A DNA stretch of 64,000 nt. Origin: Ilumatobacteraceae bacterium. GTDB taxonomy: Bacteria > Actinomycetota > Acidimicrobiia > Acidimicrobiales > Ilumatobacteraceae. The translations under genes were made by a program, and so were the position numbers. Positions 40,841 through 45,522 of this stretch are shown here, piece after piece. Every line of letters starts with the position of its first letter. The first letter of the stretch is position 1. The DNA is taken from positions 1 through 64,000 of the forward strand of contig JAKMEY010000065.1 in assembly GCA_022425725.1 (NCBI GenBank). Reading direction: 5' to 3'. The notes beneath the pieces were generated by a model. The model saw only the letters and a list, made by a program, of their open reading frames with translations, was not told the origin of the DNA and ran no database searches.

Positions 40841-42784
40841 ATGCCAGATAAGCCATGGATGATGCGCACCTATTCAGGTCACTCGACCGCTCGCGCATCG
40901 AATGAGCTCTATCGGACCAATCTCGCAAAAGGCCAAACCGGACTCTCCATTGCCTTCGACCTTCCGACACAAACCGGTTTCGACCCTGATGCCGAGCAGT
41001 CGAGAGGCGAAGTCGGAAAAGTTGGTGTCCCCGTCGCCCACCTTGGCCACATGCGAACGCTGCTCGAGAGCATTCCGCCTGGCCAAATGAATACCTCGAT
41101 GACGATCAACGCCTCCGCCGCATGGCTTTTTGCGTTGTACGTCGCCAATGCTGCTGAACAGGGCGTTGCCTCGACAGAACTTCGTGGCACCACCCAAAAC
41201 GACATCGTCAAGGAATATCTCTCACGCGGCACCTACATTTTTCCTCCTGAGGCCTCCCGACGGCTCATCGTCGACATGATCGTGTGGTGCCGCGAACAGG
41301 CACCGTCATGGAACCCCATGAATGTGTGTTCGTACCACCTCCAAGAGGCCGGCGCGACCCCCGTTCAAGAAATTGCGTATGCAATGGCGACAGCAATCGA
41401 TGTCCTCGATGCCGTGAAGGCCTCGGGTCGCATCACCGACGACGAATTCACCGGAGTGTTCGGATCGATCTCGTTCTTCGTGAACGCCGGAATCAAATTC
41501 ATTGAAGAGATCTGCAAGCTGCGAGCAATGACCGATATGTGGGCTGACATTGGTAGAACCCGCTACGGGGTAACCGATGAAAAAGCGCTTCGCTTCCGCT
41601 ACGGCGTGCAAGTGAACTCGCTCGGCCTCACCGAGTCGCAACCAGAAAACAATGTTCAGCGCATCGTGCTCGAAATGTTGGCCGTCACTCTTTCAAAGCA
41701 CGCTCGCGCCCGATCTGTTCAGCTCCCTGCATGGAACGAGGCCCTTGGCCTTCCAACACCTTGGGACCAACAGTGGTCACTTCGGATGCAGCAGGTACTT
41801 GCCTTCGAAACTGACCTTCTCAACTACGACGACATCTTTGATGGCTCTCATGTCATTGAGCAACTCACCGCCGAACTGCGTGAAGCAGCAACGCAAGAGC
41901 TCAACGATGTGCTTGAGCTCGGCGGAGCATTCAGCGCAATCGAAACGCTGAAATCACGTCTTGTCGGGTCGATGGCCGAGCGGACTCGCAGTATTTCCTC
42001 TGGTGAACAAACCGTCGTCGGCGTTAACTCGTTTACAGAGTCTGAAGCCTCTCCCCTCGGTGGCTCAGAGGCAATTCTCCGTGTTGACCCCGCTGTTGAA
42101 ACCGAAACCATCGCAGATGTGGAGACCTGGCGCAATGAACGCGATCAGGCAGCAGTCGAACAGGCTCTCGGCGATCTCCGCAACGCAGCCCTCGATGGCG
42201 GGAACATCATGGAAGCCTCAATTGCGCTTGCAGTCGCTGGAGGAACCACCGGTGAATGGGGTCAGACCTTGCGAGATGTCTTTGGCGAGTACCGAGGCCC
42301 AACCGGTATCGGAGCGACAACTCGCTCTGATCACTCGCTGTCACAGGTAGCAGCAAAGGTCCGTGAAATGCCCGGAGGCCCGCCGCGATTACTCGTCGCC
42401 AAGCCCGGTCTCGACGGACACTCAAATGGAGCCGAGCAGATCGCAGTCGCAGCTCGAGATTCAGGAATGGAAGTTGTCTACGCAGGCATTCGATCAACGA
42501 TCGATCAAATTGCGTCGACAGCTCTCGATGAAGACCCTGACGTCATCGGGTTGTCGATTCTCTCCGGCTCACACCTTGAACTCGTGCCCGAACTTGTGCA
42601 AAGGGTTCGCTCACTCGGTGTTGACGCACCGATCATCGTTGGTGGCATCATTCCCGACGAAGACCAACCACGTCTCATCGACAACGGTGTCGCAGCGGTC
42701 TACACGCCGAAAGATTACGAACTGGCGGCAATCATGACCGACATCTCTGAGCTGACGTCTCAGCACCGACTCACCCAGAACTGA
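40841..42784 (+). CDS. ecm: Ethylmalonyl-CoA mutase (B12-dependent)
   Basis: A 647-residue single-chain mutase: a TIM-barrel domain (about 1-500) and a C-terminal B12 domain. The B12 motif DGHSNG gives Asp525, His527 and Gly530. WMMRTYSGHSTARASNELYRTNLAKGQTGLS, QPENNVQRI and QQWSLRMQQ match, from memory, the Ecm/MeaA branch rather than methylmalonyl-CoA mutase, which is about 70 residues longer. Ecm converts ethylmalonyl-CoA to methylsuccinyl-CoA. The ccr and epimerase genes 13 kb away supply its substrate. It may share the aat promoter and has a strong Shine-Dalgarno. It overlaps the convergent oxygenase gene by 14 bases. Confidence 0.88.
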   Translation: MPDKPWMMRTYSGHSTARASNELYRTNLAKGQTGLSIAFDLPTQTGFDPDAEQSRGEVGKVGVPVAHLGHMRTLLESIPPGQMNTSMTINASAAWLFALYVANAAEQGVASTELRGTTQNDIVKEYLSRGTYIFPPEASRRLIVDMIVWCREQAPSWNPMNVCSYHLQEAGATPVQEIAYAMATAIDVLDAVKASGRITDDEFTGVFGSISFFVNAGIKFIEEICKLRAMTDMWADIGRTRYGVTDEKALRFRYGVQVNSLGLTESQPENNVQRIVLEMLAVTLSKHARARSVQLPAWNEALGLPTPWDQQWSLRMQQVLAFETDLLNYDDIFDGSHVIEQLTAELREAATQELNDVLELGGAFSAIETLKSRLVGSMAERTRSISSGEQTVVGVNSFTESEASPLGGSEAILRVDPAVETETIADVETWRNERDQAAVEQALGDLRNAALDGGNIMEASIALAVAGGTTGEWGQTLRDVFGEYRGPTGIGATTRSDHSLSQVAAKVREMPGGPPRLLVAKPGLDGHSNGAEQIAVAARDSGMEVVYAGIRSTIDQIASTALDEDPDVIGLSILSGSHLELVPELVQRVRSLGVDAPIIVGGIIPDEDQPRLIDNGVAAVYTPKDYELAAIMTDISELTSQHRLTQN

Positions 42785-43472
42785 CAGCCCGTTCGCTCTC
42801 CACCCACTCTGCAAGATGTGGAGACGACTCAAAGCTGGTGATCAGCGCGTAACGAGGCACATCACCCGAATGCACGACGACATGCCACAAACGCTGTGTA
42901 TCAACGATGAAGCGTGCACCTTTTTGCAACGAAACCCGACGTTCTGTCGAGGGGTCAGGTAATCCGTCTGCATCGTTATCCATCAGCAGCATGTAGCTGT
43001 CTGGACAATCGGTGAGTTCAACCCACGTACGAACAACCCAACCCTCACCTTCAGGATTGAAACGATTGTTGTCATCACGATGTAGCGACCTGATAGCGGT
43101 CTCTCGATCTTGAGGCTCCAACTTGATGACGCGCACGCGTCCAAAGTTTGCGCCAACCCCATCGACATAGCTTCTGAGTGTCGGTGCAATCTCCGCGTTA
43201 GATGTCCACAACGCATCTTTGTCGGTCTTACCTTTATCCCAGAACCCTCGACAATCGAGCTCGCCATCGGCAGACGCAAGAGGAGCGAAATTGGTATCTC
43301 CACCACTCTTCCAGTCCATGTAGTCGAGCCTCTCCCATTCTTCGACGGGGACATCGATCGGCATCGGAGAGAGATCGACAACCCCATCACGATCAAGAGC
43401 GCTCATGCGGTAGTGATCGGTGTGAAGCGGAATCTTGACGCTCCAATGTTCACTGTTGGGCCAGAAGCTCAT
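42771..43472 (-). CDS. Putative 2-oxoglutarate/Fe(II) oxygenase
   Basis: A 233-residue soluble protein with the marks of a double-stranded beta-helix dioxygenase. His131-x-Asp133 (SLHRDDNN) and His197 (RLWHVVVH) could bind iron, and Arg207 (PRYALITSF) could bind 2-oxoglutarate. The arrangement resembles aspartyl/asparaginyl beta-hydroxylase-like proteins. The assignment rests on motif spacing, not on a recognised family, and no substrate is implied. The ATG has TACACT seven bases upstream. It ends inside the tail of ecm on the other strand. Confidence 0.6.
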   Translation of the reverse strand: MSFWPNSEHWSVKIPLHTDHYRMSALDRDGVVDLSPMPIDVPVEEWERLDYMDWKSGGDTNFAPLASADGELDCRGFWDKGKTDKDALWTSNAEIAPTLRSYVDGVGANFGRVRVIKLEPQDRETAIRSLHRDDNNRFNPEGEGWVVRTWVELTDCPDSYMLLMDNDADGLPDPSTERRVSLQKGARFIVDTQRLWHVVVHSGDVPRYALITSFESSPHLAEWVESERAVSSG

Positions 43473-43530: not shown

Positions 43531-43902
43531 CTAACCAGCGTTCGCAATCGTCGAGTCTGGAGGCAGAGTGACAATGACGAAGCCCTGGGGTATCTCAATG
43601 ATCTCTCCAACTCGGATATCGCTCGCATTCTCAAGTTCGTTGAGTTCAACGATCTGTTTCATCGGAACACCGAATCCTGCTGCGATCGCCGAGAGCGTGT
43701 CACCTGACCTCACTTCGTAGAAATAACGGTTGGTGTCTGGAATCGTCGTCATTGTTGTCGTCGTCGTTGTTGTCTGAATGGGAGGCAACGGGTCGAGCGA
43801 AAGATCGCTGTTGCTGCACCCAGCCACGAGCACCATCGCAGTTGCCAACACCGCAAGGGCCATCTCTCGATGCTGAAGTGGTATTCGCAAAAGTTTCCGC
43901 AT
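43531..43902 (-). CDS. LysM-domain lipoprotein
   Basis: A 123-residue exported lipoprotein. A basic start and hydrophobic segment end in the lipobox VLVAGC near residue 29. A Thr-rich linker (seven Thr, then MTT) leads to one LysM domain (YEVRSGDTLSAIAAGFGVPMKQIVELN...VGEIIEIPQ). LysM binds peptidoglycan, so it probably sits on the outer face of the membrane in contact with the wall. The start at MRKLLRIPL is chosen because it gives a normal lipoprotein signal; longer in-frame starts would add a non-conserved leader. Confidence 0.83.
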   Translation of the reverse strand: MRKLLRIPLQHREMALAVLATAMVLVAGCSNSDLSLDPLPPIQTTTTTTTMTTIPDTNRYFYEVRSGDTLSAIAAGFGVPMKQIVELNELENASDIRVGEIIEIPQGFVIVTLPPDSTIANAG

Positions 43903-43947
43903 GGGTATCACGTGTTCTCCGCTAAGAACTCTACGGCCATTGCGCTC

Positions 43948-43953
43948 TAGCCT
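43948..43953 (+). promoter_or_regulatory. -10 box for the alpha/beta-hydrolase gene
   Basis: TAGCCT is seven bases before the GTG at 43961 and decides that start. Confidence 0.45.
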
Positions 43954-43960
43954 CACCCAA

Positions 43961-44878
43961 GTGGAATCCCCCAGAACTTTTCCGGGTGCTGTCGCGCCTC
44001 AGCGCCACTACCGAGTAGACGCCGATGGCGTCGGAATTGCTGTCAACGAATGGGGAGATGAACGCGATCCCGTTCTTGTCATGGTGCATGGAGGAGCCGA
44101 TTTCTCTCGTACATTCGACGTCTTCGCGCCGCTCTTTGCGGCAGCCGGCTGGCGGGTTGTCGCATGGGACCACCGCGGCCATGGGGACAGCGATCACACA
44201 CACCTCTACTCGTTCGAAGCTGATCTTCGTGACGCAACTCGCGTGCTCGACGCCGTTGCCCCACGACGGCCGGTTGCCGTACTCGGACACTCGAAAGGTG
44301 GCTCGATTCTCACCTCACTTGCCGAAGCACAACCCTTTCGCTTCCGTTCGTTTATCAACCTTGATGGCATTCCGTATCGAAGGCCCGGTCCGGACCTACC
44401 TGAGTATCAACGCGCCGATGCCCTCAACACCGAAATCACTGGCTGGCTCGAGCATCGTCGTCGATCGGCGACTGGATCACGCAAACCCGGGACTATTGAA
44501 GAACTCGCACGTCGTCGAGCACAAATGAACCCACGGCTCTCGACCGAATGGCTTGAATACCTCGTTACTGTGGGCGCGCGCGAAGATGCCGATGGCTGGC
44601 GCTGGAAACTCGACCCGTCGATGAGGATGGGAGGCTTTGGCCCTTGGAAACCTGAATACGGTTTATTTCGCCTCGCCGGTCTCGGTGTGCCCTTTTTAGG
44701 TGTGCTCGTTGGCGCTGACGAGCCGATGGGATGGGGAACGAAATCTCATCAGGTTGAGAAATGGATTCCGAGAAACGGACGTCTCGAATACTTCGATGAT
44801 CTCGGTCACTTCATCCACATCGAGCAGCCAAAAATGGTTGCCGATATGGCGCTCGAATTTCTTGGTGCTCCGGCATGA
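43961..44878 (+). CDS. Alpha/beta-hydrolase
   Basis: A 305-residue alpha/beta-hydrolase. The oxyanion segment VMVHGGADFSRTFD lies near residue 38, WDHRGHGDSD near 70, and the nucleophile elbow VLGHSKGGSILTSL near 108 carries the catalytic Ser. A C-terminal FDDLGHFIHIEQP near 285 supplies the His. The fold and triad are clear; the substrate is not. GTG start. It overlaps the next hydrolase-like gene by ATGA, so the two are co-translated. Confidence 0.85.
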   Translation: MESPRTFPGAVAPQRHYRVDADGVGIAVNEWGDERDPVLVMVHGGADFSRTFDVFAPLFAAAGWRVVAWDHRGHGDSDHTHLYSFEADLRDATRVLDAVAPRRPVAVLGHSKGGSILTSLAEAQPFRFRSFINLDGIPYRRPGPDLPEYQRADALNTEITGWLEHRRRSATGSRKPGTIEELARRRAQMNPRLSTEWLEYLVTVGAREDADGWRWKLDPSMRMGGFGPWKPEYGLFRLAGLGVPFLGVLVGADEPMGWGTKSHQVEKWIPRNGRLEYFDDLGHFIHIEQPKMVADMALEFLGAPA

Positions 44879-45522
44879 GTACCGTCACTCTTCAGCACAA
44901 CCGCATCGAACTTGCCCTTCACCAGCTCAGGCCAGCAACCGGAGAAGGGCACCCGCTGCTGCTGCTTCACGGTCTCGGAGAATGCACCCCCACATCGGTT
45001 CCGCATGGTGTTGAGAGTTGGCAAGGGAGTATTTGGGGGCTCGATTTCACCGGACACGGCGAATCGACAATCCCGGTGGGTGGTGGTTATTCGGCGGAGG
45101 TACTCCTCGGCGATGTCGATGCCGCCATCAATCACCTTGGAACTGTCACCCTGGTTGGTCGAGGGCTCGGGGGCTACGTTGCGTTGCTCGCGGCAGGCGC
45201 CCGCGTCGATGCAGTGCACGGGGCGGTGATCACTGATGGCCCCGGTCTCACAGGCGGTTCCTACGAATCGTCGGTACCTCAAAGTGCTCGACTGATGGAT
45301 CAGGGTCAAATCCCTGACCCCTACGCTCTACATGAATTGAGCCGTGATGTCAGAGCAGCCGATTATGCACTTGATTTCGTGCAGTACAGCGTCGCCAATT
45401 CTGAACTCGCCGAACCGATCAATGTGTCAGCTCTCTATCGACCGACATGGTTAGCCGAAGTTGCAGCAGCCCCAGGTGTTGCATCACTACCGCTGGGTGA
45501 CGCGCTCAATCTCTACCGCTGA
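44875..45522 (+). CDS. Alpha/beta-hydrolase-fold protein lacking the nucleophile
   Basis: A 215-residue alpha/beta-hydrolase homologue. LLLLHGLGECTP near residue 28 and GLDFTGHGEST near 55 are normal. The nucleophile elbow reads VGRGLGGYVALL, with Gly97 (codon GGG) where the catalytic Ser of GxSxG should be. The protein is short and lacks the usual terminal His segment. It is therefore probably inactive as a hydrolase, or serves as a binding partner of the active enzyme encoded just upstream with an ATGA overlap. A recent loss or a sequencing error cannot be excluded. Confidence 0.75.
   Translation: MSTVTLQHNRIELALHQLRPATGEGHPLLLLHGLGECTPTSVPHGVESWQGSIWGLDFTGHGESTIPVGGGYSAEVLLGDVDAAINHLGTVTLVGRGLGGYVALLAAGARVDAVHGAVITDGPGLTGGSYESSVPQSARLMDQGQIPDPYALHELSRDVRAADYALDFVQYSVANSELAEPINVSALYRPTWLAEVAAAPGVASLPLGDALNLYR

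Follow-up and report, generated by a model that had tools for sequence, protein, structure and literature searches.

Two overlapping genes raise the question of what a protein with the alpha/beta-hydrolase fold can do when Gly stands at the position of its catalytic Ser, and of why its gene is found directly behind that of a homologue with intact motifs. Both genes, here named B and A in the order in which they are read, lie in a window of 64,000 nucleotides (the whole stretch of DNA that was analysed) from an Ilumatobacteraceae bacterium. Their coordinates, together with the loci of a second pair type (A'/B') described below, are collected in Table 1.

Table 1. Features of the A/B pair in the window, and loci of the second pair type
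Feature	Position	Strand	Remarks
Gene B, alpha/beta hydrolase with intact motifs	43901..44878	+	325 aa counted from first ATG
B elbow GHSKGG	44285..44302	+	Ser131 codon 44291-44293
B catalytic-His segment GHFIHIE	44804..44824	+	His303
ATGA overlap	44875..44878	+	A start inside B stop
Gene A, predicted alpha/beta-hydrolase-fold pseudoenzyme	44875..45522	+	ORF, 215 aa, ATG start
A elbow G-R-G-L-G-G, residues 95-100	45157..45174	+	Gly97 codon GGG 45163-45165 at nucleophile Ser position
A'/B' loci	L154:3297-4918 and L155; L171-L189		L154 and L155 from genomes G060 and G045

Gene A keeps the fold and lacks the catalytic Ser and His

The hydrolase fold of A is real, since the protein exceeded the curated Pfam cut-offs of both PF00561 (28.2 vs 25.8 bits, residues 27-122) and PF12697 (29.1 vs 26.3 bits, residues 28-208), in each case just above the cut-off. 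Its structure model (pLDDT 89) showed a reduced hydrolase fold, with the core strands and helices, a further short strand and the last helix in place, the His loop missing and a short cap partly below 50 pLDDT (residues 129-137). The fold matches of A were generic: the 50 matches listed had VIA Z values of 16.8-18.5 and an rmsd of 2.9-4.3 over 180-206 aligned residues, and were esterases and related hydrolases. Bottromycin epimerase (6t6h, Z 17.4) was considered as a lead and rejected, being tied with many ordinary hydrolases. No close solved relative of A was found, the PDB sequence matches covering only roughly residues 7-157.

The first-pass annotation had claimed that the elbow of A carries Gly in place of the catalytic Ser and that the terminal His segment is gone, and had pointed to the conservation of the Gly in relatives as the matter to check; both claims were borne out. 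Close full-length matches to A (E 2.2e-56 or better) were present in 38 of 61 related genomes, the others having weak, partial or no matches, and Gly97 was invariant in an alignment of 39 A proteins. After the addition of draws from the class and the phylum, the set comprised 68 A rows from 67 genomes, and every one of them had Gly at the nucleophile position, so that the Ser of the GxSxG elbow of an active serine hydrolase was absent from all 68; close relatives with a normal GxSxG at this elbow, named beforehand as the contrary case, were sought and none was found in the A family. The control consisted of the hits that scored next best against the A profile, ordinary hydrolases drawn from genomes with and without A: 22/22 of the elbows seen in them had Ser (one match, L135, an A fragment without elbow, was set aside). 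Ten close relatives used GGG, GGC or GGT for this Gly, indicating that the residue and not the codon is kept; chance or a sequencing error is thus excluded by the 68 homologues and by this codon variation.

The His segment could be followed in the same alignments. In the 67 aligned rows no column with His at 85% or more was observed beyond residue 61, and the catalytic-His segment was absent from the A alignment, where the GHFxHIE tail of B has no counterpart. Other residues were strictly retained, namely H32, D57, H61, S64, Y72, E75, D80, D148, R160 and W192 (67/67), with D121 in 66/67, and the proteins measured 211-237 aa in 66 of the 68 rows. In a single genome (G068, locus L099) A was broken in frame, either by a real break or by an assembly error. 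Lacking the Ser and the His, A cannot follow the usual route of hydrolysis.

Gene B is a complete hydrolase

Gene B matched PF12146 at 4.6e-21, and 68 of 69 B rows kept its elbow Ser, the remaining row being a fragment without the elbow. Its model (pLDDT 87) was that of a complete hydrolase carrying a large cap, whose nearest folds were the curacin thioesterase domain and PA1622. Both its Ser and its His motifs suggest that B is active. The acid of B may be the Glu of an E-x-M-G-W motif (44711-44734), which is Asp in some relatives, against the usual Asp.

The 5' end of B is probably shorter than the longest frame, as homology starts near residue 15-20, which makes the GTG at 43961 a likely alternative start. 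A gene for a LysM-domain protein (43531-43956, minus strand) runs divergently from B, and at its greatest length this ORF overlaps B's first ATG; at least one of the two genes therefore probably begins at a more internal codon, B perhaps at the same GTG.

A and B occur in the same genomes, side by side

The distribution of the two genes was surveyed in draws from the class and the phylum, which are samples, with profiles built from 39 (A) and 35 (B) sequences of the same families (another count gives 39 and 37 rows, with two fragments); the profile-building sequences belong to these families, and their matches are therefore found by construction. Of 296 class genomes, 44 had A (E 5e-49 or better), and exactly these 44 also had B (E 1e-60 or better). 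A 45th genome passing 1e-15 (G049) was left uncounted because its elbow reads GHSLGG. B was immediately upstream of A in 63 of the 68 A rows, with an in-frame A start at -4 to the B stop in 62 and at -1 in one; the start at -4 is a possible start, as homology in some rows begins later, up to 98 bases behind the B stop. No fusion of A and B was seen, and the frames were offset in adjacent pairs. Co-occurrence was near-obligate, which answers the question of the first-pass annotation whether the two genes always occur together, and its description of a complete hydrolase just upstream fits B, with Ser131, His303 and the ATGA junction.

The remaining cases were varied. In G366, outside the class, B was located 1.76 kb upstream of A on the same strand. 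Three A loci were without B (G010, G265 and G314), B being on another contig in these genomes; A was located at the contig start in G010, and G265 and G314, where A and B are truly apart, had the most divergent A. Genome G026 had two A and three B-type genes: for the second copy of A (L116), the B-type gene lies at a distance of about 6 kb on the other strand, and a third B-type gene lies elsewhere, which leaves one B without A. In G045 (70% complete) a fragment of A was found at a contig end and the canonical B was not found. In 30 genomes without a complete A, B-type scores reached 2e-48 at best; the top two scorers, G060 and G045, represented the second pair type.

A polyprenyl synthase gene was found downstream of A on the opposite strand. 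The neighbours seen across the loci included polyprenyl synthase, xseA-type, methylmalonyl-CoA-mutase-type, ABC transporter and two-component genes, with clusters that we take to be XseA and XseB; they differed between lineages, and no pathway could be read from the gene context. A 233-aa ORF of the window (42771-43472, minus strand) had relatives in 19 of 53 loci compared and no Pfam or NCBIfam match.

Selection, co-evolution and origin of the pair

In the four closest comparisons dN/dS was 0.045-0.082 for A and 0.011-0.057 for B, the ratios being quoted for close pairs only, as dS values above 2 are saturated. By these estimates A is under purifying selection. The distances of A and B were correlated over 61 genomes (r = 0.81), and partial correlations controlling for three neighbouring gene families were 0.60, 0.82 and 0.74 (25, 23 and 17 genomes), each reached in 0 of 500 permutations; the control families are themselves neighbours of the pair, and this mirror-tree test left out G026b, G068, G004, G328, G265 and G314 as well as every row whose locus lacks B. 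On these distances A is co-evolving with B beyond the control genes. Adjacent genes have a common history, so that the correlation supports contact between A and B and does not prove it.

A maximum-likelihood tree of subsets (21 A and 19 B rows) recovered A as a single clade on a long stem (1.56), separate from B and from ordinary hydrolases. Given this single clade, one event at or before the base of A suffices to explain the loss of Ser. An origin of A as a recent duplicate of B was rejected, since the two form separate clades.

A second pair type with the same layout

Genome G060 carried a B-like hydrolase (GHSLGG, GHYIHVE) followed, with an ATGA overlap, by A', a divergent hydrolase-fold protein with the elbow GHGWGG and without the His tail. 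At 1e-30 the B-like protein of G060 matched 14 of 396 phylum genomes, G060 included, and the places matched were loci of the B family, except for G060 itself. Counting G060 itself, 19 of 298 genomes of the order had relatives of A'. B' was directly upstream in 17 of them, and in the remaining two the frame of A' reaches the upstream end of the locus. The two genes overlapped by -4 or -1 in 16/17 pairs, Ser was kept at the elbow of 17/17 B' seen, and the A' elbow position was Gly in 16, Ala in one, Arg in one (L174) and Ser in one (L176, GHSCSA), the Ser thus being lost in 18 of 19; the first A' alignment and the A' starts were rough, and the overlap and elbow counts were repeated with a profile. 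The Ser of L176 counts against a strict rule of Ser loss in the A' clade, and in these alignments only the A clade has the Gly fixed.

In a four-group tree (12 A, 10 B, 12 A' and 12 B', omitting four ordinary hydrolases with long branches) A joined A' (98/93) and B joined B' (91/82), from which the pair is probably ancient. The simplest reading of this topology would be a single origin of the pair and a later split in which both genes stayed together.

What A does

We consider it probable that A is a non-hydrolytic accessory subunit, regulatory or structural, dedicated to the active hydrolase B. The conservation of A probably stems from binding, and B, as the constant companion of A, is the most economical binding partner; a dead and a live look-alike kept together across a class suggest that they work as a pair. 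The ATGA overlap would couple the translation of the two genes and yield matched amounts, and the products would come into physical contact as a heteromer in which A may tune the stability of B, its substrate entry or its activity. Conserved residues in the cap or interface of A (D121, D148, E154, D158, R160, Y164 and W192) could serve this end, and A might act by stabilising B, by covering its active site or by sensing a ligand. The idea of a pseudo-enzyme partner, originally put forward as plausible, is well supported genetically by the invariant Gly, by the shared genomes and by the linkage of A to a homologue with intact motifs, adjacent in 63/68 rows. Counted against a subunit are the unlinked B of G265 and G314, the extra B of G026, and the A fragment of G045 with no canonical B. 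For the fuller proposition, an ancient obligate two-subunit hydrolase of Acidimicrobiia type, translationally coupled and co-evolving in two deep clades, whose dead subunit controls the live partner, we judge the chances evenly balanced.

A less likely explanation, which we hold only tentatively, would make A a non-hydrolytic enzyme or ligand-binding protein in its own right, which shares a pathway with B, uses its pocket for a new purpose and does not touch B. The conserved polar residues of A could also signal a new active site, and many of them are invariant beside a retained oxyanion-type HGLG and GHG; a non-hydrolytic use of the fold also has a precedent in NDRG3, according to the available text of PMC7022630. 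However, HGLG and GHGxS are also ordinary motifs of the fold, the elbow residue is variable in the A' clade, and both the 1:1 overlapping layout, seen in two deep clades, and the excess co-evolution of A with B go beyond what a shared pathway requires. That A still hydrolyses, through another nucleophile or with residues supplied by B in trans, appears very improbable: several conserved acids, His and Ser are left for such a role, but the elbow offers no Ser, Cys or Thr, no conserved His follows residue 61, and the His loop is absent from the model. A functionless decaying paralogue, which the lost triad and the in-frame break in G068 might suggest, is scarcely credible and largely refuted by the dN/dS of 0.045-0.082 in close pairs, the length of 211-237 aa in 66/68 rows and a Gly kept in 68/68 rows across a class.

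Comparison with known systems

Read as an accessory subunit of B, A would be poorly served by the automatic annotation "alpha/beta hydrolase", which is misleading. Our literature search found no description of the A/B pair and no bacterial precedent, an absence that is not proof; the pseudoenzymes of this fold that it did find, in the source texts available, were from animals and fungi. Closest at hand in bacteria are the ordinary hydrolases L146-L148 (GHSLGGYLAL...GPGF) and L134, which were among the next-best matches of the A profile and share the GGY and GPG surroundings; unlike A, they keep the Ser elbow and are not grouped inside the A clade.

NDRG3 is an alpha/beta-hydrolase-fold protein, and NDRG2 and NDRG3 resemble A in combining this fold with non-reactive residues in place of the triad, whereas the family is eukaryotic and an operon with an active homologue is not described for it in the available text (PMC7022630). 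The Ndr profile was not among the Pfam matches of A at E 0.1, and NDRG chains were absent from the fold matches listed, which excludes nothing as to a likeness to NDRG. Neuroligins and the ChE-like domain of thyroglobulin use the fold for binding, as a protein-binding scaffold of the kind proposed here for A, but they are animal proteins, for which the text available describes no homologous active partner gene (PMC5943944).

The fungal VdtD, in which Asp replaces Ser, affects the stereochemistry of a laccase product and, like A, is a Ser-less hydrolase-like protein clustered with the enzyme whose outcome it affects, as far as the available text goes (PMC6600887). It differs from A in being fungal, in its Asp, in its carboxylesterase/neuroligin-type relatives and in its partner, a laccase instead of a homologous hydrolase (PMC6600887). 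No carboxylesterase-type profile was among the Pfam matches of A at E 0.1, while VdtD itself would be expected, from the relatives named in that text, to match one. As these sources present them, none of NDRG3, VdtD, the neuroligins and thyroglobulin is a dead hydrolase from bacteria with a live homologue as its partner; the A/B pair, class-wide and with a second clade, would offer a tractable case of a dead homologue controlling a live one.
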